Assembly (NCBI RefSeq): GCF_021129305.1
Contig: NZ_JAJOMB010000011.1
Location: 186,001 to 250,000 of the forward strand
From: Kineosporia babensis
GTDB taxonomy: Bacteria > Actinomycetota > Actinomycetes > Actinomycetales > Kineosporiaceae
Direction of reading: 5' to 3'
Length of the DNA: 64,000 bases
In this document: in pieces, positions 10,957 to 20,107 of the stretch
Numbering within the stretch: the stretch's first letter is position 1
Layout of the letters: each line of letters opens with the position of its first letter
Translations under genes and position numbers: made by a program
Notes under the pieces: model-generated
What the model was told of the DNA's origin: nothing
Database searches by the model: none
What the model saw: only the letters and a program-made list of their open reading frames with translations

Positions 10957-11622
10957 TCAGGGAAGATCCAGCCCGGCCAGCAGCGCCCGCCGGCTGGCCC
11001 GAACGTGTTCCCGCATGACCTGCTCGGCGCTGTCACCGTCCTTGGAGCGGATCAGGTCCAGGACCACGTGGTGCTCCCGGTCGGACTGCCGGGCCCGGCC
11101 GGGCTGCTGCAGCGAGGTGACCACCAGCCGGGAGTAGGCCAGCTGGTTCATCAGCGTGCGGTAGTGCGCCTCGAGCTTGGTGTTGTCGGCGCCGGTGATC
11201 AGCAGCCCGTGGAACTCCTCGACCAGCTCGGCGTACCGGGCCCGGTCGTCGGCCTCGACCGCCAGATCGGACTGGCGGACGTTCTCCTCCAGCTGCTCCA
11301 CCTCCGGCACCCGCCCGCGCAGCGCCAGCAGCCGGGCGGCCGCCCCTTCCAGCAGTTCCTTCATCTCGAACAGCTCGGTGATGTCCCGCCGCGACGGCGC
11401 CGCGACGAAAGTGCCCACCCGCGGGCGGATCTCGACCAGCCCCTCGGTCTGGAGCTGTTTGAGCGCCTCCCGCACCGGGGTCCGGCTGACCCCGAACTCC
11501 TCGGCCAGGGCGATCTCGGAAAGCAGGGCACCGGAGGCCGCCTCACCGGTGATGATCCGCCGGCGCATCTCGGCGATCACCCGTTCCTGACGACTCCCGG
11601 TGCCTTCCGCCACGCGCTGCAT
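10957..11622 (-). CDS. GntR-family regulator with FCD domain
   Basis: This 221-aa protein has an N-terminal GntR winged helix (RRRIITGEAASGALLSEIAL, GVSRTPVREALKQLQTEGLV) and a C-terminal FCD ligand domain containing the Asp/His metal-site pattern (ARYAELVEEFHGLL, EHHVVLDLIRS, MREHVRASR). FCD regulators usually respond to the carboxylate or substrate of the pathway beside them. The ATG has GAGGAACG just upstream. It is the first regulator in the cluster reaching to the luciferase-like monooxygenase, and it probably binds the 15-bp sites at the two divergent promoters. That binding is inferred. Confidence 0.92.
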   Translation of the reverse strand: MQRVAEGTGSRQERVIAEMRRRIITGEAASGALLSEIALAEEFGVSRTPVREALKQLQTEGLVEIRPRVGTFVAAPSRRDITELFEMKELLEGAAARLLALRGRVPEVEQLEENVRQSDLAVEADDRARYAELVEEFHGLLITGADNTKLEAHYRTLMNQLAYSRLVVTSLQQPGRARQSDREHHVVLDLIRSKDGDSAEQVMREHVRASRRALLAGLDLP

Positions 11623-11647
11623 CGTTCCTCGGTCTCGATCGGACGGC

Positions 11648-12154
11648 TCAGCCGAGCGGCGAAAGGCCCTCGGAGCTGAAGAACTTACCCGAGCTGTAGA
11701 CCACCGGCGGCAGGTCGGTGACCTCGGCCGCGACCACCCGGCAGATGAACACGGTGTGAGTGCTGGCCTGCAGCCGCTCGCGGATCTCGACTTCCAGGTG
11801 GGCACTGCTGCCGGCCAGCAGCGGGGTGCCGAACTGCCCACGGCTCCAGGCCACGCCCTCGAACTTGTCGCCGGTCTTGGAGGCGAACTTGCCCATCACC
11901 TCCATCTGCTCGACCGAGGCGATGTTGATCGCCAGGTGCGAGGCGGTGAACAGGCAGTCGTGGGTGTTGGAGGTGCGCTGCACGCAGACCATCACGGTGG
12001 GCGGGTCCAGCGAGATGCTGGCGAAGGCGTTCACCGCCAGGCCGCGCGGGGTGTCCTCGTCCATCGCGGTGACCAGCGTGACGCCGGTGACGAAGCGGCG
12101 GTTGACCTGCTTGAGGATGTCGACATCGGGGCGGGTGGGAGTGGAGACCGTCAT
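11648..12154 (-). CDS. Flavin reductase-like protein (two-component monooxygenase reductase)
   Basis: A 168-aa protein of the flavin reductase-like FMN-binding family. It makes reduced FMN from NAD(P)H for a partner oxygenase. Motifs are RRFVTGVTLVTAM, the FMN-contacting GLAVNAFASISLDPPTVMVC, AINIASVEQMEVMGKFAS and the C-terminal HTVFICRVVAAEV. GGAGGA precedes the chosen ATG, 18 codons inside the open frame. No separate oxygenase gene adjoins it on this strand. The luciferase-like enzyme at the far end of the divergent operon is the obvious partner. Confidence 0.9.
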   Translation of the reverse strand: MTVSTPTRPDVDILKQVNRRFVTGVTLVTAMDEDTPRGLAVNAFASISLDPPTVMVCVQRTSNTHDCLFTASHLAINIASVEQMEVMGKFASKTGDKFEGVAWSRGQFGTPLLAGSSAHLEVEIRERLQASTHTVFICRVVAAEVTDLPPVVYSSGKFFSSEGLSPLG

Positions 12155-12204
12155 TGGATCCTCCTGCTGATACGGGTTCTCGCCGGGAAATTCGGGGGCG
12201 GGGC

Positions 12205-12639
12205 TCACTGGTCCTGGCCGACGGTGATCACGCCGATCGCGGTGAGCAGGCCCCGCGGGTCCCAGGTCACGTCCTCGGTGTGGATCAGCCCGTCGGGGCC
12301 GAAGGCGGCGAAGGTGGCGCCGGAGACCTCGACCCGGCGCTTGGTGGCCGGTACGCCGAGGAAGGGGTGGCTGTGGGTGCCCGCGCTGTGCCAGCGCACC
12401 GCCACCTTGTCCCCCTCCACGACCAGGTCGTCGATGGTGGTGACCAGGTCGGGGAAGGCCGCCCGGGTGGTGATGATGGTCGCCTTGAATGCCTCGCGGT
12501 CCAGGCCCTCGTCGTCGTTGCGGGCGCGCCGCCGGTAGTCCGGGGCGAGCAACTGGTCGAGGGCGTCCACGTCGCCGTCGTCCCAGGCGGCCGACCAGCT
12601 CTCGGTGACCAGCCGGCGGCGGGTCTCGCTGTCGCTCAT
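12205..12639 (-). CDS. SnoaL/NTF2-like protein
   Basis: A 144-aa single-domain NTF2-fold protein of the SnoaL-like polyketide cyclase/ester cyclase family: SWSAAWDDGDVDALDQLL, DREAFKATIITTRAAFPDL, VAVRWHSAGTHSHPFLG. The fold hosts isomerases, hydrolases and binding proteins, so the reaction is not predictable. The ATG overlaps the stop of the BCCT gene by 4 bp and has GAGGAAACC upstream, so it is co-translated with the transporter. Its place in the cluster suggests processing of the imported compound or of a reactive intermediate. Confidence 0.85.
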   Translation of the reverse strand: MSDSETRRRLVTESWSAAWDDGDVDALDQLLAPDYRRRARNDDEGLDREAFKATIITTRAAFPDLVTTIDDLVVEGDKVAVRWHSAGTHSHPFLGVPATKRRVEVSGATFAAFGPDGLIHTEDVTWDPRGLLTAIGVITVGQDQ

Positions 12640-14309
12640 GCGGTTTCCTCCTTGTCGGTGCAGGCGTCCAGTTCCTGCTTCTTCAGCTGCGCCCGGCGCA
12701 CCGCGTGCTGGTCCTGCACCAGTTCCTTCCAGAACGAGACGGCCAGCCCGGCGATGATCACCAGGAACGGTGCGGAGGTGACGATCACGGTGTTCTGCAG
12801 CGCGTTCAGGCCGCCGGCGAGCATCAGCACGATCGCGGTGATGCCGGTGAGGATGCCCCACAGGACCAGGATCGAGCGGCGCGGGGTGAGCGAGCCGCCG
12901 GAGGTCATCATCGCCAGCACGTAGGTGTTCGCGTCGGCGCCGGAGACGAAGAACATCACGACCAGGAAGATCGCCACCGCGGAAGTGACGCTGGCGAACG
13001 GGAAGTTCTCGAGAGTGGCGAAGAACGCGCTGTTGATGTCGGCCGCGGTCTGCTCGGCGATGGTGCCGCCACCGAACATGTCCACGTGGATCGCGGTACC
13101 GCCGAAAACCGTGAACCAGGTGAAGAAGACGACGGTGGGCACGACCAGGACACCGACGATGAAACCGCGGATGGTACGGCCCTTGGAGATCCGGGCCAGG
13201 AAGACGCCGACGAAGGCGCCCCAGGACACCCACCAGGCCATCATGAAGTAGGTCCACCACTGCATCCACTGCAGGTCGCCGAAAGCCGTTCCCTGCAGGC
13301 TCATCCGGAAGAAGTCGGTGGCCCACAGGCCGAGCGACTCGATGTACAGGTTCGCGATGAACACGGTCGGGCCGACCACCAGCATGAACACGAACAGCGC
13401 ACCGGCCGCGATCACGCTGCCCTGGCTGAGGTACTTGATGCCCTTGCTGACCCCGGTGACGGCGGACATCGTGAAGATCGCGGTGACCGCGGCGATGATC
13501 AGTACCTGGGCCACGTTGTTGACCGGGATACCGAAAAGCGTGGCCAGGCCGTTGTTCACCTGCAGGGCGCCCAGGCCGAGCGAGGTGGTGGTGCCGAACA
13601 AGGTGGCGAACACCGCCAGGACGTCGATCGCCTTGCCGATCGGGCCGTCGACCCGGTTACCCAGCAGAGGACGGAACAGCTGGCTCACCAGGGTCGGGCG
13701 GCCTTTGCGGTGGGTGGAGTAGGCGATCGCCAGACCGAACACCGCGAAGATGGCCCAGGCGTGCAGGCCCCAGTCGAAGTAGCTGTACTGCATCGCCCGC
13801 ACCGCCGCGTCCGGCGTCCCGGCCTCGGCCAGAGCGTGCGGCGGGGTGGCGAAGTGCGAGATCGGCTCGGCCACGCCGTAGGAGACCAGGCCGATGCCCA
13901 TCACCGCGGACAGGATCATCGCGAACCAGGAGAGGTTGGAGAACTCCGGGCGGTCGGTGTCCTTACCGAGGCGGATGTCGCCGTACGGGCTGAAGGCCAG
14001 GAACACCAGGAAGACCAGGAGCGCGAGGGTGACCACTAGGTAGGCCCAGCCGAAGGTGCCGGTCAGCCAGTTCAGGGAAGCGTTGGTGACGTCGTTGAGG
14101 TTCTCGGTGAACAGCACGCCCCAGGCCACGAAGAGGGCGCAGACCGTGACCGAGGCGGCGAACACGCCCCCGAGCCGGCCGCGACCGGCGCTGTTGTCGT
14201 TCTGCGGCTGACCCACGGGCACCTCGGCGCTCGGCGATGGGGGCGGCGTACTGGCCTGGGGGACGTCGATGACGTCGACCTCTGCAGGCTCGCTGAACTT
14301 CTGGGACAT
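12636..14309 (-). CDS. BCCT-family transporter
   Basis: A 557-aa secondary transporter of the betaine/carnitine/choline family. It has a long Pro/Glu-rich cytoplasmic N-terminus, 12 membrane segments, the unwound-helix region AVMGIGLVSYGVAEP and the Trp-rich helix WTYFMMAWWVSWGAFVG followed by FLARISKGRTIRGFI. Substrates in the family carry a quaternary ammonium or similar cation, bound in an aromatic box. The ATG follows an excellent AGGAGGG. It is the first gene of an operon with the SnoaL-like protein and flavin reductase, read from a promoter with a near-consensus -35 and -10. Import of the pathway substrate is inferred. Confidence 0.93.
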   Translation of the reverse strand: MSQKFSEPAEVDVIDVPQASTPPPSPSAEVPVGQPQNDNSAGRGRLGGVFAASVTVCALFVAWGVLFTENLNDVTNASLNWLTGTFGWAYLVVTLALLVFLVFLAFSPYGDIRLGKDTDRPEFSNLSWFAMILSAVMGIGLVSYGVAEPISHFATPPHALAEAGTPDAAVRAMQYSYFDWGLHAWAIFAVFGLAIAYSTHRKGRPTLVSQLFRPLLGNRVDGPIGKAIDVLAVFATLFGTTTSLGLGALQVNNGLATLFGIPVNNVAQVLIIAAVTAIFTMSAVTGVSKGIKYLSQGSVIAAGALFVFMLVVGPTVFIANLYIESLGLWATDFFRMSLQGTAFGDLQWMQWWTYFMMAWWVSWGAFVGVFLARISKGRTIRGFIVGVLVVPTVVFFTWFTVFGGTAIHVDMFGGGTIAEQTAADINSAFFATLENFPFASVTSAVAIFLVVMFFVSGADANTYVLAMMTSGGSLTPRRSILVLWGILTGITAIVLMLAGGLNALQNTVIVTSAPFLVIIAGLAVSFWKELVQDQHAVRRAQLKKQELDACTDKEETA

Positions 14310-14364
14310 CTGGCCCTCCTGAGGCGCCTATGCCTTGGGACTGCGGTTGGATCAAGCTCTTCGA

Positions 14365-14410
14365 TGTTGCATGCATCAGGGATGCTACGAAGGTCACATG
14401 GGGGTGTCAA
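14365..14410 (-). promoter_or_regulatory. Promoter and operator of the BCCT operon
   Basis: On the minus strand TTGACA (14405-14410) and TAGCAT (14382-14387) are separated by 17 bp. TGTTGCATGCATCAG (14365-14379, plus-strand reading) follows the -10 box, over the expected transcription start. The same 15-mer, with two changes, lies at the equivalent place in the divergent promoter. Confidence 0.75.
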
Positions 14411-14603
14411 TGGCCGTGAGCCAGGGCATAGGAATCCACTCGGGAAACGGTAGTGCCGCAGCCCTCGAACCGCCCTCCGGGTCACCCTTGCCAGGGCTCA
14501 TTCGCTGGCAGTTACGGGTGTATTGCGAACTTGAGACGGCTGCGGACGGGTGAGCGCGGCGGTAACCGGACGGCAACCCGAGTCGGGCTTCCGATGACGT
14601 CTG

Positions 14604-14648
14604 TTGACACTCGCATCGGGCGGTCGTACGTTCTGTTGCATACATGAG
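14604..14648 (+). promoter_or_regulatory. Promoter and operator of the DUF1185 operon
   Basis: TTGACA (14604-14609) and TACGTT (14627-14632) are spaced by 17 bp. TGTTGCATACATGAG (14634-14648) begins two bases after the -10 and matches the operator of the divergent promoter at 13 of 15 positions. A repressor on these sites would block both operons. The nearby GntR protein is the candidate. Confidence 0.75.
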
Positions 14649-14661
14649 CGAGGAGAAGCGC

Positions 14662-15318
14662 ATGAGCGTCGACCTGGAGCCGAGTCCCGGCTCGCTGGAT
14701 CTCGAAGCCGCCCCCCGTACGCCGGACTGGCTGCGGCGGATCGCGGTGTACCGGGAGGAGGTGCTGCTCGAGAACGCAGCTGCGCCCGCCGTCCCTGCTC
14801 TGAAGGCCACAGCGGCGGCCGTGATCCGCAATCCCTGGATCGGGACCCCCTCCTCGCGTGACCTCTCCCCCGAGGTCGAGGCGATCGCCCCGGTTCTGGC
14901 CCGTGAGCTGACCGGACGGCTGATCGCCACCCTGGGCGGCACCGCGGCGATCGAGGCGTTCGGGAAGGCGGCGATCGTCGGCACCCGCGGCGAGCTCGAG
15001 CACGCCGGGGCGCTGATCCACACCCCGTTCTTCGGCAACCTCATGCGCGAGTTCCTCGAGGGCGAATCCATCATCTGCTTCGCCGACACCCGCGCCGACG
15101 CCGGCGAGACCCTGGTGGTGCCGATGTGGCACAAGAACCACGCCGCCACCCGCAGTCACTACCAGACGATCACCGCGCGGATCTCCGACGGCCCCCGGGC
15201 CGACGAGATCGTCGTGGTGGCGGCGGCCTCCACCGGCCCCCGCCCACACGCCCGGATCGGCGACCGGCGTACCGATCCGACTGTCAGCGCGTCCACCATT
15301 GCGAAGGGAACCAAGTGA
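14662..15318 (+). CDS. DUF1185 (amino acid synthesis family) protein A
   Basis: A 218-aa member of the DUF1185 family. The conserved core reads AIEAFGKAAIVGTRGELEH and AGALIHTPFFGNLMREFL, with HYQTITARISDGPRADEIVV near the end. Known structures of the family show a chorismate-mutase-like trimeric fold, but no reaction is established. I take the ATG with AGGAG at the right distance. An in-frame ATG six codons earlier lies inside the operator. Compared with the next gene it has a divergent, longer N-terminus and a longer tail. Its stop overlaps the next start (TGATG), so both are made together. Confidence 0.88.
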   Translation: MSVDLEPSPGSLDLEAAPRTPDWLRRIAVYREEVLLENAAAPAVPALKATAAAVIRNPWIGTPSSRDLSPEVEAIAPVLARELTGRLIATLGGTAAIEAFGKAAIVGTRGELEHAGALIHTPFFGNLMREFLEGESIICFADTRADAGETLVVPMWHKNHAATRSHYQTITARISDGPRADEIVVVAAASTGPRPHARIGDRRTDPTVSASTIAKGTK

Positions 15319-15869
15319 TGAACGTCCGCAAGATCGTCACGATCGTCGACGAGACCCTCACCGAGGGCGGCCGTCCGGTCGAGCCCGCCGCCCGGGTCGC
15401 GGTCGTCGCGGCAGTGATCGAGAACCCCTGGGCGGGCCAAGGTTTCGTGGAGAACCTGACCGCCGGGATCGACGCCAACGCCTCCGACCTGGGCGCGCTG
15501 CTGGCCCCGCGGGTGATCGAGGCGCTGGGTGCGCCGGTCGAGGCCTACGGCAAGGCGGCGATCGTCGGTCTGGACGGCGAGATCGAGCACGGTTCGGCGC
15601 TGATCCACACGCTGAAGTTCGGCAACCACTTCCGGGACGCCGCCGCGGCCAAGACCCTGCTGCCGGCGGTGGAGAAGCGCGGGCCCGCGGGCATCGTCTT
15701 CGACATCCCGCTCAAGCACTTCACCGACGCCACGATCCGCTCGCACCACCAGACCTTCGAGGTGCGTATCCCGGACGCCCCGCACCCGGGCGAGATCGTG
15801 ATCGCGCTCGCCGCCGCGGCCCAGGGCCGGCCCCAGCAGCGCCTCGCGGCCCTCTCCACCGAGCAATGA
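15318..15869 (+). CDS. DUF1185 (amino acid synthesis family) protein B
   Basis: A 183-aa second DUF1185 protein with the family start intact (RKIVTIVDETLTEGGRPVEP), then AYGKAAIVGLDGEIEH, SALIHTLKFGNHFRDAA and HHQTFEVRIPDAPHPGEIV. It and its neighbour share the GKAAIVG-GE-EH-ALIH-FGN core but differ elsewhere, so they are old paralogues or subunits of a hetero-oligomer. The role is unknown, and the name amino acid synthesis protein is a family label without biochemical support that I know of. It overlaps the hydrolase gene by 4 bp (ATGA). Confidence 0.9.
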   Translation: MNVRKIVTIVDETLTEGGRPVEPAARVAVVAAVIENPWAGQGFVENLTAGIDANASDLGALLAPRVIEALGAPVEAYGKAAIVGLDGEIEHGSALIHTLKFGNHFRDAAAAKTLLPAVEKRGPAGIVFDIPLKHFTDATIRSHHQTFEVRIPDAPHPGEIVIALAAAAQGRPQQRLAALSTEQ

Positions 15870-16588
15870 GCCGCCCGGTCGTCGTTCTGCTGCACGGGGT
15901 GGGCCTGGACCACTCCGTGTGGCGGGACGTCGTCCCGCTGCTGAGCCGCTACCAGGTCCTGACCCCGGACCTGCCCGGCCACGGCTCGGCCGCCAGAGTC
16001 CCCCAGGACGTCGACCTGGCCGGGCTGGCCGGGTTGCTGGAGATCCCGCCCGGCTCGCATCTGGTCGGGTTCTCGCTCGGCGCCCTGGTCGCGCAGTATC
16101 TGGCGATTCACCGGCCGGAACTGGTGGCCTCGCTGACCAGCGTGAGCTCGGTCTGCCGGCGCACCCCGGCCGAGCGAGAGGCGGTGCTGGGCCGCCTGGC
16201 GGTGGCTGAGCAGGACCCGGCCCGGGCCGCGGCCGCCTCGATCGACCGCTGGTTCGCCGGATCCACGGTTGCGGCCGAGACCATCGAGCACACCCGGGCC
16301 GTACTCACCGCCAACGACCCGGCACAGTTCCTGGCCTGCTACCGGGTCTTCGGCACCGGCGACGCGGTCGTCGGAGGAGATCTGCACCGGATCACCGCGC
16401 CCTCCATCGCCGTCACCGGCGCCGAGGACCCAGGTTCCACCCCGGAGATGTCACAGCGCCTGGCGGCCGCCATCCCCGGCGCCCGGGCCGTGATCGTCCC
16501 GGGTGTGCGCCACATGCTCCCGGTCGAGACACCCACCGTGCTGGCCGGCCTCATCGACGAGGTCATCGGAGGAAAAGTCAATGTCTGA
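15866..16588 (+). CDS. Alpha/beta hydrolase
   Basis: A 240-aa alpha/beta-hydrolase with oxyanion region LLHGVGLDHSVW, nucleophile elbow GFSLGALVAQ (Ser), acid TGAEDPG (Asp) and histidine GVRHMLPVE, the complete triad in order. There is no signal peptide, so it acts in the cytoplasm. It lies in a tight operon, overlapping the DUF1185 gene before it and the aldehyde dehydrogenase after it. In analogous two-component oxygenase pathways such a hydrolase cleaves an amide, enamide or lactone made by ring opening. That role is inferred. Confidence 0.9.
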   Translation: MSRPVVVLLHGVGLDHSVWRDVVPLLSRYQVLTPDLPGHGSAARVPQDVDLAGLAGLLEIPPGSHLVGFSLGALVAQYLAIHRPELVASLTSVSSVCRRTPAEREAVLGRLAVAEQDPARAAAASIDRWFAGSTVAAETIEHTRAVLTANDPAQFLACYRVFGTGDAVVGGDLHRITAPSIAVTGAEDPGSTPEMSQRLAAAIPGARAVIVPGVRHMLPVETPTVLAGLIDEVIGGKVNV

Positions 16589-18065
16589 AACCCTTACCCA
16601 TCACATCGGTGGGGAGAAGGTCGAGCCGGCCGGTGGCGGGCACTTCGACAGCACCAACCCGGCCACCCGGGAAACCCTGTACGCGGCCGCCCGGGGCGAT
16701 GCCACCGACGTCGACAAAGCGGTCAAGGCTGCCCGCCGGGCGTTCGAGTCGCCCGCCTGGCGGGACATGACCCAGACCGGCCGCGGCCGGCTGCTGCGCC
16801 GGCTGGCCGAACTGATCGCCGAGAACGCCGAGGAACTGGCCCGCACCGAGAGCCTGGACAACGGCAAGCTACTGCGCGAGATGCGCGGCCAGATGCAGGG
16901 TCTGCCCGAGTACTACCACTACTACTCCGGTCTGGCCGACAAGATCCAGGGCGACGTGATTCCCACGTCCGACCGGGCGGTGCTGAACTACACCATGCGC
17001 GAGCCGCTGGGCGTGGTCGGCGCGATCACCCCCTGGAACTCCCCACTCACCCTGACCACCAGCAAGCTTGCGCCCGCGCTGTGCGCCGGGAACACCGTCG
17101 TGATCAAGCCGTCCGAGTACACCTCGGCCTCGGTGCTGCGGCTGGCCGAGCTGATCGACGAAGCCGGGTTCCCGCCTGGCGTGGTCAATGTCGTCACCGG
17201 GTTCGGCGCCGAGGCCGGTCAGGCTCTGGTCGAGCACCCCGGCATCGCCAAGATCTCCTTCACCGGCAGCACCGGTACCGGTTCCCGGATCGCCGCGTCG
17301 GTGGCCTCGCGTTTCCTCGGCTCGACCCTGGAACTGGGCGGCAAGTCACCGAACATCGTGTTCGAGGACGCGAACCTGCACAACGCCGCGATGGGTGTCG
17401 TGGCCGGTGTTTTCGCCGCCGCCGGGCAGACCTGCATCGCCGGTAGCCGGGTGTTCGTGCACCGCAGCGTCTACGACGAACTGCTGGAGCGGGTGGCCGC
17501 CCGGGCAGCGTCGATCAAGATCGGCGATCCGCTGAACGCCGAGACCGAGCTCGGTCCGCTGGCTTTCGCCGACCAGCGGGACAAGGTGGCCGGTTACGTG
17601 GACCTCGGCCGATCCGAGGGCGCCCGGGTGCTGACCGGCGGCTGCGTCTCGGACGGCGGTGGGCTGGGCGGTTACTTCTACGAGCCGACCGTGCTGGTCG
17701 ACGTCAACAACGGGATGCGGGTGGTCCAGGAGGAGATCTTCGGTCCCGTCGTCGCGATGATGCCCTTCGAAACCGAGGACGAGGTGGTCGCCTTGGCCAA
17801 CGACACCGAGTACGGTCTCGCGGCCGGTGTGTGGACGAAGGACCTCGGCCGGGCCCACCGGATGGCCAACCGGCTCGAGGCCGGCACGATCTGGGTGAAC
17901 ACCTACCGGGCGATGTCGCCGATGTCGCCCCGCCAGGGTTTCAAGAACAGCGGTGTGGGGGTCGAGCACGGGCAGGCGACGATCAAGGAGTACACCCAGC
18001 TCAAGAGCGTCTGGATCAACACCAGCGACGCTCCGGTCGCCGACCCGTTCGTGCTGAGGAGCTGA
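16581..18065 (+). CDS. Aldehyde dehydrogenase (NAD(P)-dependent)
   Basis: A 494-aa enzyme of the ALDH superfamily. Visible are the cofactor-site TPWNSPLTLTT, catalytic glutamate LELGGKSPNIVFED, nucleophile cysteine AAAGQTCIAGSR and the C-terminal EEIFGPVVAMMPF. The sequence is closest in style to betaine-aldehyde and hydroxymuconic-type dehydrogenases. The ATG has GGAGG upstream and overlaps the hydrolase stop by 8 bp. It should oxidise the aldehyde or hemiacetal produced by the monooxygenase to a carboxylate. The substrate is inferred. Confidence 0.93.
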   Translation: MSETLTHHIGGEKVEPAGGGHFDSTNPATRETLYAAARGDATDVDKAVKAARRAFESPAWRDMTQTGRGRLLRRLAELIAENAEELARTESLDNGKLLREMRGQMQGLPEYYHYYSGLADKIQGDVIPTSDRAVLNYTMREPLGVVGAITPWNSPLTLTTSKLAPALCAGNTVVIKPSEYTSASVLRLAELIDEAGFPPGVVNVVTGFGAEAGQALVEHPGIAKISFTGSTGTGSRIAASVASRFLGSTLELGGKSPNIVFEDANLHNAAMGVVAGVFAAAGQTCIAGSRVFVHRSVYDELLERVAARAASIKIGDPLNAETELGPLAFADQRDKVAGYVDLGRSEGARVLTGGCVSDGGGLGGYFYEPTVLVDVNNGMRVVQEEIFGPVVAMMPFETEDEVVALANDTEYGLAAGVWTKDLGRAHRMANRLEAGTIWVNTYRAMSPMSPRQGFKNSGVGVEHGQATIKEYTQLKSVWINTSDAPVADPFVLRS

Positions 18066-18066
18066 C

Positions 18067-18294
18067 ATGCCGCTGGTGGACGTCACCATCACCGAAGGCC
18101 GCTCCGCCGAGCAGATCCGCGCCCTGATCGGCCGTCTGCACGCGGCAGTGGTCGAGACCATCGACGCCAGGCCGGAATTCGTCCGGGTGATCGTGCGTGA
18201 GGTGCCGCGCGCGCACTGGGCCACCGGCGACGTCACCGTTGAGGAAATGGGCTCGCAGGCCCGCATTGCTTTGGAGCAGAAGGAGTCACAATGA
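18067..18294 (+). CDS. 4-oxalocrotonate tautomerase-family protein
   Basis: A 75-aa tautomerase with Met directly followed by Pro (MPLVDVTITEGRSAEQ), so the processed protein exposes the catalytic N-terminal proline. Length is slightly above the 62-residue type enzyme. An Arg occurs in RVIVREVPRAHW where the family has substrate-binding arginine and a hydrophobic pocket. It sits between the dehydrogenase and the monooxygenase, which it overlaps by 4 bp. It would isomerise an enol or dienol intermediate or dehydrohalogenate. The first is more likely here. Confidence 0.9.
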   Translation: MPLVDVTITEGRSAEQIRALIGRLHAAVVETIDARPEFVRVIVREVPRAHWATGDVTVEEMGSQARIALEQKESQ

Positions 18295-19337
18295 AGTTCT
18301 CTCTTTTCGTCCACATGGAACGCTGGGACGAGTCGGTCAGCCACCGTGAGCTGTTCGAGAACCTGACCGAACTGACGCTGCTGGCCGAGGCCGGCGGGTT
18401 CAGCACGGTGTGGGTGGGCGAGCACCACTCGATGGAATACACCATCTCGCCGAACCCGATGCCGACCCTGGCCTACCTGGCGGCGCGCACCTCGACCATC
18501 CGGCTCGGGGCGGGCACGATCATCGCGCCGTTCTGGAACCCGATCCGCGCGGCCGGTGAGTGTGCCCTGCTCGACGTGATCAGCAACGGCCGGATGGAGG
18601 TCGGCCTGGCCCGCGGCGCCTACCAGTTCGAGTTCGACCGGCTGGCCGGCGGTCTGCCCGCCACCGACGGCGGCAAGCACCTGCGGGAACTCGTGCCGGC
18701 CGTGCGGGCGCTGTGGCAGGGCGACTACGCGCACGACGGCGAGATCTGGAAGTTCCCCACCTCGACCTCGGTGCCCAAGCCGATCCAGCAGCCCACCCCG
18801 CCGATGTGGATCGCCGCCCGGGACCCTGCCTCGCACGACTTCGCCGTGGCGAACGGCTGCAACGTGATGGTGACGCCGCTGATGAAGGGCGACGAGGAGG
18901 TGGAGAACCTGGTGGGCAAGTTCGAGACCGCAGTTGCTGCCCACCCGGAGATCACCGAGCGGCCCAAGCTGATGGTGCTGCGCCACACCCACGTGCACGA
19001 CGAGAGCGACCCGGAGGGCTGGAAGCCGGCGGCGGCCGCGATCAACAAGTACTACCGCAGCTTCGATGCCTGGTTCGGCAACAAGAGCACCCCGGAGGAC
19101 GGCTTCCTGGAGCCCAGCCCAGAGTCGAAGTTCGACGGTCGGCCCGAGTTCGAGTTGGAGTCGCTGCACCGTACCGCCATGATCGGCACGCCTGCCGAGG
19201 TGATTGAGCGGCTGAAGCACTACCAGGCGCTGGGGGTGGACGAGTTCAGCTTCTGGATCGACAACAGCATGTCGCACGAGGAGAAGCGGGCCTCGCTGCA
19301 GCGCTTCGTCGAGCACGTGGTGCCCGCCTTCAGCTGA
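18291..19337 (+). CDS. LLM-class flavin-dependent monooxygenase
   Basis: A 348-aa luciferase-like TIM-barrel oxygenase that uses reduced FMN supplied in solution. Marks are the N-terminal MKFSLFVHMERWDESVSH, the barrel motif STVWVGEHHSMEY, IRLGAGTIIAPFWNP, VISNGRMEVGLARGAY and the C-terminal GTPAEVIERLKHYQALG. It has no reductase domain, so it needs the flavin reductase encoded in the divergent operon. As last gene of the operon it follows the tautomerase with ATGA overlap. By analogy with TgnB and other two-component oxygenases it probably opens or hydroxylates the imported substrate. Confidence 0.92.
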   Translation: MKFSLFVHMERWDESVSHRELFENLTELTLLAEAGGFSTVWVGEHHSMEYTISPNPMPTLAYLAARTSTIRLGAGTIIAPFWNPIRAAGECALLDVISNGRMEVGLARGAYQFEFDRLAGGLPATDGGKHLRELVPAVRALWQGDYAHDGEIWKFPTSTSVPKPIQQPTPPMWIAARDPASHDFAVANGCNVMVTPLMKGDEEVENLVGKFETAVAAHPEITERPKLMVLRHTHVHDESDPEGWKPAAAAINKYYRSFDAWFGNKSTPEDGFLEPSPESKFDGRPEFELESLHRTAMIGTPAEVIERLKHYQALGVDEFSFWIDNSMSHEEKRASLQRFVEHVVPAFS

Positions 19338-19349
19338 CCTACCCGTCCC

Positions 19350-20107
19350 AGCTTCACCAGCCTTCGCATCGCTTCGCCAGCCTTTGCGGCCGCAAAAGCC
19401 CAGGTCGCCGGCCGGGCGGTGGGAACGGAGGCTGGTGAAGCCTTGCTCTCCGCCCACCTTCTCGCCAGACCTGACCAGCCCTGGCACCCGCAACGCCCGG
19501 GCGGCGGAACAGTCGCTGGTGAAACCCGAGTGTTCTTTCCCCTCCGCATAGCTCCCGCCCGGACCTGGCCAGCCTTTGCACCCGCAAGGCCCGGGCGGCG
19601 GAACAAGGCGCTAGCGAAACCCAAGCACCCCCGCCCTCCGCACCGCTCCCGCCGGACCTAACCAGCCGTTTCACCCGCGATACCGGGCGGCGGAACGCGG
19701 GACAGCCGCTGGTGAAACCCCTAGTGTTCCTGCCCTCCGCCGAGCTCCCGCCGGACCTAACCAGCCGTTTCACCCGCGATACCGGGCGGCGGAACGCGGG
19801 ACAGCCGCTGGTGAAACCCCTAGTGTTCCTGCCCTCCGCCGAGTTCCCGCCGGACCTGACCAGTCTCTGCACCCGCAGAATCGGGCGGCAGGACGGTCGC
19901 TGGTGAAACCCCAAGTGTTCCTGACCTCCGCTGAGCTCTCGCCGGACCGGGCCAGCCTTTGCACCCGCAATGCCCGGGCGGCGGGACAAGGCACCAGTGA
20001 AACCCAAGCACTCCAGCCCTCCGCCCCACTCCCGCAGGACCCGACCAGCCCTTGCACCCACAATCCCGGCAGCAGGGACAAGGCGCTGGCGAGGTTCGGA
20101 TTGGGGC
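19350..20107. repeat. Degenerate tandem repeat array, unit 85-99 bp
   Basis: About eight head-to-tail units fill the gap after the monooxygenase gene. A shared landmark, GGGCGGCGGAAC or close, falls at about 19414, 19499, 19593, 19685, 19784, 19883, 19976 and 20067. Units 19645-19743 and 19744-19842 are identical over all 99 bp and the others are diverged. Each unit holds GCTGGTGAAACCC and ACCAGCCGTTTCACCC-type segments, so GTTTCACC can pair with GGTGAAAC. Spacings of 85, 94, 92 and 93 break any reading frame, so it is probably non-coding although a minus-strand frame stays open. Confidence 0.85.

Follow-up and report, generated by a model that had tools for sequence, protein, structure and literature searches.

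The window, a stretch of 64,000 bases of Kineosporia babensis (bases 186001-250000 of contig 3 in an assembly of 9.4 Mb and 89 contigs), contains at 10957-19337 a divergent cluster of ten genes encoding a flavin-dependent monooxygenase of the LLM family, a flavin reductase, an aldehyde dehydrogenase (ALDH), an alpha/beta hydrolase, two DUF1185 proteins, a SnoaL-like protein, a tautomerase, a BCCT transporter and a GntR/FCD-family regulator. With a probability of roughly 0.65 we regard this locus as an actinobacterial variant of the gene set for the degradation of trigonelline (N-methylnicotinate), and judged by the sequences trigonelline is the likely substrate.

A relationship to the trigonelline (tgn) genes had been proposed in an earlier, sequence-only reading of the window, and it is borne out by the comparison with a plasmid of Acinetobacter sp. 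PK01. In this plasmid relatives of the LLM protein, the ALDH, the DUF1185 proteins, the hydrolase and the reductase are clustered in a set consisting of a GntR regulator, a DUF1185 protein, a hydrolase, tgnA, tgnB and tgnC (annotated as such), a cytosine permease and a succinate-semialdehyde dehydrogenase (SSADH). The LLM protein of the window is 50% identical to the annotated TgnB, 53% to the LLM protein of the Sinorhizobium meliloti plasmid pSymA, 80% to that of Pseudomonas japonica and 46% to that of Rhizobium binae. The ALDH shares 44% of its residues with the annotated TgnC over the full length, so the cluster contains an ALDH of the TgnC type, and the reductase is 34% identical to TgnA over the 146 amino acids of the reductase domain. 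DUF1185 paralogues a and b are 45% and 47% identical to the DUF1185 protein of the Acinetobacter cluster, paralogue b also 49% to that of S. meliloti. The hydrolase is 30% identical to its counterpart in the Acinetobacter cluster (28-32% to hydrolases of the Tgn type as a whole); its residues Ser70, Asp188 and His216 are conserved in at least 98% of 68 sequences.

The LLM cluster on pSymA (GntR, DUF1185, hydrolase, reductase, LLM, ALDH, ABC transporter and SSADH) adjoins nodL-noeA-noeB. A strain of S. meliloti lacking pSymA does not grow on trigonelline, as stated in an excerpt of PMC4207669, and Goldmann 1991, going by its title, assigns trigonelline genes to the symbiotic region of pSym. DUF1185 had been said to have no role in the known scheme, which is wrong. 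According to the excerpt seen of PMC7913881, the DUF1185 protein HcdD has a homologue in TgnF of A. baylyi, which stimulates the TgnE-dependent oxidation of succinate semialdehyde; therefore DUF1185 does figure in the scheme. For HcdD itself the authors saw no such stimulating effect (PMC7913881, same excerpt).

In the source genome the gene grouping goes beyond chance, since the only two DUF1185 matches genome-wide both sit in the cluster and just two BCCT matches were found. For a wider comparison 457 loci with an LLM relative were obtained from a named genome collection, and the best 80 were kept, 60 of them actinobacterial and 20 from Pseudomonas. The 60 loci belong to Nocardioides, Streptomyces, Mycobacterium, Geodermatophilus, Arthrobacter, Sinomonas, Tsukamurella, Gordonia, Nocardia and other genera; together with eight stretches from the same order as the window and one plasmid they make up 69 actinobacterial loci. 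These were selected by LLM similarity and are no random sample. Genes were counted within about 10 kb of the LLM gene under identity limits, for the ALDH at least 60%. Some loci end at contig ends, therefore the true gene absences may be fewer. The set is conserved, 66 of the 69 loci containing LLM, ALDH, hydrolase and the two DUF1185 genes at once. Taken singly, ALDH, hydrolase and each of the DUF1185 genes are present in 67 loci; the count is 66 for flavin reductase, for SnoaL and for GntR, 56 for tautomerase and 39 for BCCT.

Among the eight stretches of the same order five contain all ten genes (L014 and L017 to L020). In L016 nine of the ten are found and only the ALDH is a distant one (40-43%), which the identity limit excludes from the counts. 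L015 gave no match for BCCT, SnoaL or tautomerase, and its reductase is distant (28-29%). The LLM match in L021 is shortened by 37 residues at the N-terminus, and none of the partner genes was matched in its stretch of 16 kb. At E <=1e-40 the LLM protein was detected in nine of 297 genomes of the order; in the genus two of six genomes have it, the source genome included, so the cluster is accessory in the genus. In titles and the beginnings of abstracts no assignment of the actinobacterial cluster was found; an earlier recognition in Perchat 2018, Boivin 1990 or the homarine paper is possible.

The 20 Pseudomonas genomes had been picked for their window-type LLM, and seven stretches around the ALDH or the LLM gene were inspected. 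Their LLM proteins are about 80% identical to that of the window and about 50% to TgnB, and in all 20 genomes this protein is the only TgnB match at E <=1e-30, save for one second match of 30%. A TgnC-like ALDH (51-53%) is also encoded in each of the 20 genomes, one copy holding an internal stop. Hydrolase, reductase and GntR genes are present in all seven stretches, as is a DUF1185 gene whose product is 57-60% identical to that of S. meliloti; the ALDH, likewise present in all seven, reaches 56-57% to the S. meliloti protein. CMD-family genes were seen in six of the seven (76-81% to Acinetobacter) and SSADH genes in three (69-71% to Acinetobacter). The usual neighbours of the Pseudomonas LLM gene are a reductase gene, in 17 of 20 loci, and an NCS1 permease gene, in 15 of 20, and the permease of P. 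japonica is 55% identical to the Acinetobacter one. The window-type LLM appears to fill the TgnB slot, because no other close relative of TgnB is present in genomes which have the rest of a Tgn-type set and because it is physically linked to that set in a minority of the Pseudomonas loci. When 249 Pseudomonas genomes were searched, 141 gave a TgnB match at E <=1e-60, 139 of them at 48-53% identity (two partial) and two only at 41-42%; none reached 60%. The range of 48-53% is also that of the 20 window-type LLM proteins compared directly. In the phylum of the window three of 396 genomes gave TgnB matches, at 48-50%.

The tree of the LLM proteins places those of the window type from actinobacteria and Pseudomonas in one clade (support 96/97), next to a clade of the TgnB type (100/99) and one of the R. 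binae type (100/98); the branch to the outgroup is very long. In the alignment of 33 window-type, seven TgnB-type and two R. binae-type sequences, 91 columns are fixed within each of the three clades. Sixty-three of them are identical in all three and 22 are common to the window and TgnB types only, so that these two types agree in 85 of the 91 columns and differ in six. A transfer of the LLM gene from actinobacteria to Pseudomonas was considered, as the first tree nests Pseudomonas within actinobacteria, but the AU test does not reject a tree in which the actinobacteria stay in one group (p-AU 0.354, without outgroup). Therefore no direction of transfer is claimed.

A linked SSADH gene would argue for an end at succinate semialdehyde and therefore for trigonelline. 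In the window no SSADH (TgnE) gene is linked to the cluster. The source genome encodes SSADH-like proteins elsewhere, which are 59% and 52% identical to the SSADH of Arthrobacter. Linked SSADH genes (at least 45% identity, within about 10 kb) were found in five of the 69 actinobacterial loci, and SSADH linkage was therefore rejected as a general feature of the cluster.

Several observations weigh against trigonelline as the substrate. At these limits no linked SSADH was found in the other 64 actinobacterial loci. The identities of 50% for the LLM protein and 30% for the hydrolase leave room for another substrate, and ALDH and hydrolase are closer to the R. binae cluster type (56% and 36%), for which no SSADH was found in the three stretches inspected. 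Neither for SnoaL nor for the tautomerase is there a counterpart in the Acinetobacter cluster annotated as tgn. In Pseudomonas the partner genes (DUF1185 with ALDH, or SSADH with CMD) share the stretch of the LLM gene in only six of the 20 loci, for which reason the Pseudomonas set was not accepted as a full operon. The remaining partner genes lie elsewhere in the genome or past the stretch, and the LLM gene itself is found in three of the seven inspected stretches. Finally, the window-type and TgnB-type LLM proteins form separate clades, in a tree with long branches and only seven TgnB-type and two R. binae-type sequences.

These points lead to the strongest competitor, which we consider unlikely but well worth keeping in mind: the chemistry could be the same and the substrate another N-methylpyridinium acid, such as homarine (N-methylpicolinate) or N-methylisonicotinate, the specificity of the LLM clade having shifted. 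The own clade of the LLM protein and the nearness of ALDH and hydrolase to the R. binae type would fit such a shift, and the route could be a changed one in view of the extra tautomerase, the second DUF1185 protein and SnoaL. For environmental bacteria a pathway of homarine degradation was published in 2026 (Nat Microbiol). On the other side, relatives of the tgn-type SSADH and CMD proteins occur in the Pseudomonas genomes with a window-type LLM, the SSADH genes next to the cluster in Arthrobacter, Pseudarthrobacter and one Nocardioides fit an end at succinate semialdehyde, and the window and TgnB types of the LLM protein agree in 85 of 91 fixed columns. As to homarine in particular, its catabolism is reported to involve Mgd, an N-methylglutamate dehydrogenase (PMC13390433, in part), and an excerpt of PMC8269262 argues that TgnAB are for steric reasons unlikely to act on this compound.

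It is quite improbable that the LLM protein acts as a monooxygenase on aldehydes, ketones or sulfur compounds, with neighbours that belong to an unrelated pathway. The LLM fold serves many substrates, and the matches in the PDB include luciferases and a dimethylsulfone monooxygenase; however, the best of them reaches 113 bits (phmmer) against 347-391 bits for the TgnB-type proteins (BLAST, on a scale which is not strictly comparable), and the set of DUF1185, ALDH, hydrolase and reductase is shared with the annotated tgn cluster. Least probable of all is that the BCCT protein imports a betaine osmolyte without aromatic ring (glycine betaine or stachydrine) which is then turned over: the best model for the ALDH is betaine-aldehyde dehydrogenase, but the match is below the cut-off and annotated TgnC has the same best model, likewise below cut-off, and the BCCT protein stays under the glycine-betaine equivalog cut-off (589 versus 650), differs from the other BCCT protein of the genome at a fixed Asp/His site, and is replaced by an NCS1 permease in 27 of the 69 loci.

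The genes of the trigonelline-type cluster are listed in Table 1. All ten are intact, each with a reading frame open from ATG to TGA, and every assignment is backed by Pfam. The gene content given by the sequence-only reading for the two divergent units is thereby confirmed; its list is correct but left the GntR/FCD-family regulator at one end unnamed. GntR, flavin reductase, SnoaL and BCCT genes are on the minus strand and the remaining six on the plus strand. Overlaps had been described throughout, which holds for five of the eight same-strand junctions (1-8 bases) but not for the other three, where gaps of 1, 25 and 50 bases are seen.

Table 1. Genes and candidate operator-like sites of the cluster (positions in the window).
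Feature	Position	Strand	Evidence and remarks
GntR/FCD-family regulator	10957..11622	-	PF07729 89 bits, PF00392 75 bits; intact frame
Flavin reductase, TgnA-like reductase component	11648..12154	-	PF01613 125 bits; without the C-terminal half of TgnA
SnoaL/NTF2-like protein	12205..12639	-	PF07366 92 bits
BCCT transporter	12636..14309	-	PF02028 607 bits
Operator-like site TTGCATRCATSA, BCCT side	14367..14378	.	Candidate from sequence pattern
Operator-like site TTGCATRCATSA, DUF1185 side	14636..14647	.	Candidate from sequence pattern
DUF1185 paralogue a, TgnF-like	14662..15318	+	PF06684 (AA_synth) 185 bits; in-frame ATG also at 14644
DUF1185 paralogue b, TgnF-like	15318..15869	+	PF06684 (AA_synth) 206 bits; Gln at His174 equivalent
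Alpha/beta hydrolase, TgnD-like	15866..16588	+	PF12697 77 bits
ALDH, TgnC-like	16581..18065	+	PF00171 589 bits
4-Oxalocrotonate-tautomerase-type protein	18067..18294	+	PF01361 53 bits
LLM flavin-dependent monooxygenase, TgnB-like oxygenase component	18291..19337	+	PF00296 198 bits

SnoaL and the flavin reductase are both present in 66 of 91 loci examined. They form one continuous frame in 15 of these, with SnoaL first, and are separate but adjacent in the other 51, the spacing between the two matches being -10 to 197 bases. The 25 loci without SnoaL, reductase or both are mainly from Pseudomonas and rhizobia. In Arthrobacter dokdonellae (L104) the fusion is annotated as one coding sequence with both Pfam domains, and the reductase of the window is 55% identical to this fusion protein. 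Because of the fusion in 15 of 66 loci, SnoaL is probably an accessory domain of the reductase, and a separate cyclase or isomerase step was placed behind this interpretation for the same reason. SnoaL had been described as lying outside the known scheme and as pointing to an unassigned step; the former stands, as the annotated tgn genes contain no counterpart, the latter is made improbable by the fusion. A sensor or gating role of SnoaL on the reductase could be imagined. The C-terminal half of Acinetobacter TgnA is weakly similar to a Pseudomonas NUDIX protein (25% over 146 amino acids), and Pfam found no NUDIX domain in it. Going by these alignments, different lineages seem to have different accessory parts in their reductases. 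A riboflavin kinase gene adjoins the cluster in L104 and L015, and a NUDIX gene is also found in L104; the kinase perhaps supplies flavin cofactor to the oxygenase. In Streptomyces tuirus PHM034 (L050, 4127-5071) the SnoaL and BCCT matches are each split in two pieces, and these genes may be broken or misassembled.

Both DUF1185 paralogues match the family profile (PF06684) and contain its conserved Glu, His and Arg residues. Eight residues from the structure paper (PMC2954203) were checked, all of which are kept in paralogue a and seven in paralogue b, the eighth being H174. At this position (BB2672 numbering) all 68 paralogue b proteins have Gln, and 60 of 68 paralogue a proteins have His, the other eight another residue. 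The five single-copy DUF1185 proteins compared all have His, and SPO0826 has Leu. His174 as a universal DUF1185 residue was therefore rejected. By analogy a mixed hexamer of a and b may be possible, because BB2672 and SPO0826 are hexamers in solution (PMC2954203). In the parts of the literature seen, no enzymatic role was found for the DUF1185 family.

The tautomerase had been placed outside the known Tgn scheme, and this is upheld: besides the missing counterpart in Acinetobacter, the gene was not found within the 10-kb limit in 13 of the 69 actinobacterial loci. The protein carries the N-terminal Pro, Arg11 and Arg39 that place it in the 4-oxalocrotonate tautomerase (4-OT) subgroup, where we take these residues to have their usual roles. 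Pro1 and Arg11 are conserved in all of 57 aligned sequences and Arg39 in 42.

Import of a quaternary or N-heterocyclic compound had been proposed, and the transporters agree with it. Among the 69 loci 34 have BCCT alone, 27 an NCS1 permease alone, five both and three neither; BCCT and NCS1 transporters thus interchange between loci, and the NCS1 permeases without BCCT fit an N-heterocyclic quaternary compound. At the Asp/His site mentioned above, Asp is found in all 39 aligned cluster BCCT proteins (38 loci and the window), where the other BCCT protein of the genome has His; the site lies presumably in transmembrane helix 4.

The GntR/FCD protein probably regulates both divergent units. The pattern TTGCATRCATSA occurs only twice in the 64-kb window (14367 and 14636) against 0.01 expected, the pattern having been chosen after the sites were seen, and one site lies in front of each unit. 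Both sites are also present in the relative of the same genus (L014); the pair was found in two of 12 upstream sequences, these being the window and L014. Upstream of DUF1185 genes the 8-mers GCATACAA and GTATGCCA were found in 29 and 27 of 74 sequences, compared to at most 10 in one letter shuffle, counts which are inflated by related species. TTGCATRCAT with one mismatch allowed was dropped as an operator, since two occurrences in the window against 1.7 expected are not above chance.

Nine flanking frames were run against Pfam, and the ones that gave a match (exonuclease, DUF5753 regulator, methyltransferase; CAP-domain protein, BcrAD ATPase, GH4 hydrolase, transport permease) seem to have no relation to the cluster. 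Directly after the LLM gene there is a tandem repeat array (19444-20089) with periods of 92-191 bases, at most five copies and 72-79% matches, which is spanned by long reading frames.

The chemistry of the single Tgn steps is said to be that of Perchat et al. 2018, and the trigonelline enzymes described so far reportedly come from Acinetobacter. Applied to the window, the route that we infer would begin with import of the betaine by the BCCT protein. The small flavin reductase with SnoaL as accessory domain would hand reduced flavin to the LLM protein, which would cleave the N-methylpyridinium ring and so yield an N-formyl-N-methyl enamide aldehyde (TgnAB step). This aldehyde would be oxidised by the ALDH (TgnC step); the compound in the annotation of Acinetobacter TgnC, and the one to be expected from trigonelline, is (N-methylformamido)methylene hydroxybutyrolactone. 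In the TgnD step the hydrolase would take off the N-formyl/methylamine part. The asymmetric DUF1185 pair and the tautomerase may then act on the remaining dicarboxylic enol or enamine of the formylsuccinate type to give succinate semialdehyde, which an SSADH encoded elsewhere in the genome would convert to succinate. The GntR protein would control both units through the two TTGCATRCATSA sites.

Going further, actinobacteria and many pseudomonads might possess a second lineage of N-methylpyridinium ring opening, in which the actinobacterial reductase is gated by SnoaL as an N-terminal sensor domain and the last steps are catalysed by a hetero-oligomer of the two DUF1185 paralogues, one of them without the conserved His, together with the 4-OT-type tautomerase; as a whole we hold this to be rather doubtful. 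If true, the DUF1185 family would thereby acquire a role in catalysis. Higher plants accumulate trigonelline, and its importance as a labile carbon source on land has been suggested (PMC8269262, in excerpt). With an assignment of the window-type LLM lineage, a gene common in soil would receive an annotation. The DUF1185 pair with its asymmetry offers a handle on a domain family whose function is open, and the SnoaL-reductase fusion one on the control of two-component oxygenases.

Compared to known systems, the window shares LLM, flavin reductase, ALDH, alpha/beta hydrolase, DUF1185 and GntR genes with the tgn cluster of Acinetobacter. In contrast to that cluster it has two DUF1185 genes instead of one, an additional tautomerase, BCCT in place of the cytosine permease, a reductase of 168 amino acids paired with SnoaL (310 amino acids in TgnA) and an unlinked SSADH. 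In the Acinetobacter locus (L109, 4453-11407) sarcosine-oxidase-like, FolD and PurU genes adjoin the tgn genes, which fits a use of the released methylamine and formate. The Pseudomonas sets share the LLM (about 80%) and, in the seven stretches, relatives of DUF1185, ALDH, hydrolase, reductase and GntR; they differ by one DUF1185 gene seen per stretch, the NCS1 permease, a separate NUDIX gene, no SnoaL match, and genes that often lie in two places.

A plasmid stretch of Rhodococcus pyridinivorans (L140) contains LLM, flavin reductase, ALDH, amidohydrolase, tautomerase and SSADH genes, and in addition a formate-dehydrogenase-like gene and a nicotinate phosphoribosyltransferase gene; we presume that this set perhaps serves pyridine degradation. 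It shares the LLM with its reductase, the ALDH and a tautomerase with the window and also has an SSADH. However, its LLM is only 28% identical to that of the window, an amidohydrolase stands instead of the alpha/beta hydrolase, and its tautomerase gave no BLAST match at 1e-3 to that of the window.

The rhizobial plasmid cluster (S. meliloti pSymA, R. etli) has GntR, DUF1185, hydrolase, reductase, LLM and ALDH in common with the window and contains an SSADH, but ABC transporter and NIPSNAP genes replace BCCT, there is one DUF1185 gene, and no SnoaL or tautomerase is annotated in the stretch. A third cluster type, found in Rhizobium binae, Agrobacterium and Mesorhizobium (L108, L111, L138), also combines LLM, ALDH, hydrolase, DUF1185 (in R. 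binae 46-47% identical to the proteins of the window) and reductase. It differs by a helix-turn-helix regulator of about 600 amino acids, amino-acid type ABC transporters and the absence of SSADH from the stretches; in Agrobacterium a proline/betaine-type ABC transporter lies near the cluster. Possibly this third type serves another pyridinium betaine. New in the actinobacterial set described here are the fusion of SnoaL to the reductase in part of the loci, a second DUF1185 protein with Gln in place of His, the added 4-OT-type tautomerase and the interchange of BCCT and NCS1 transporters.

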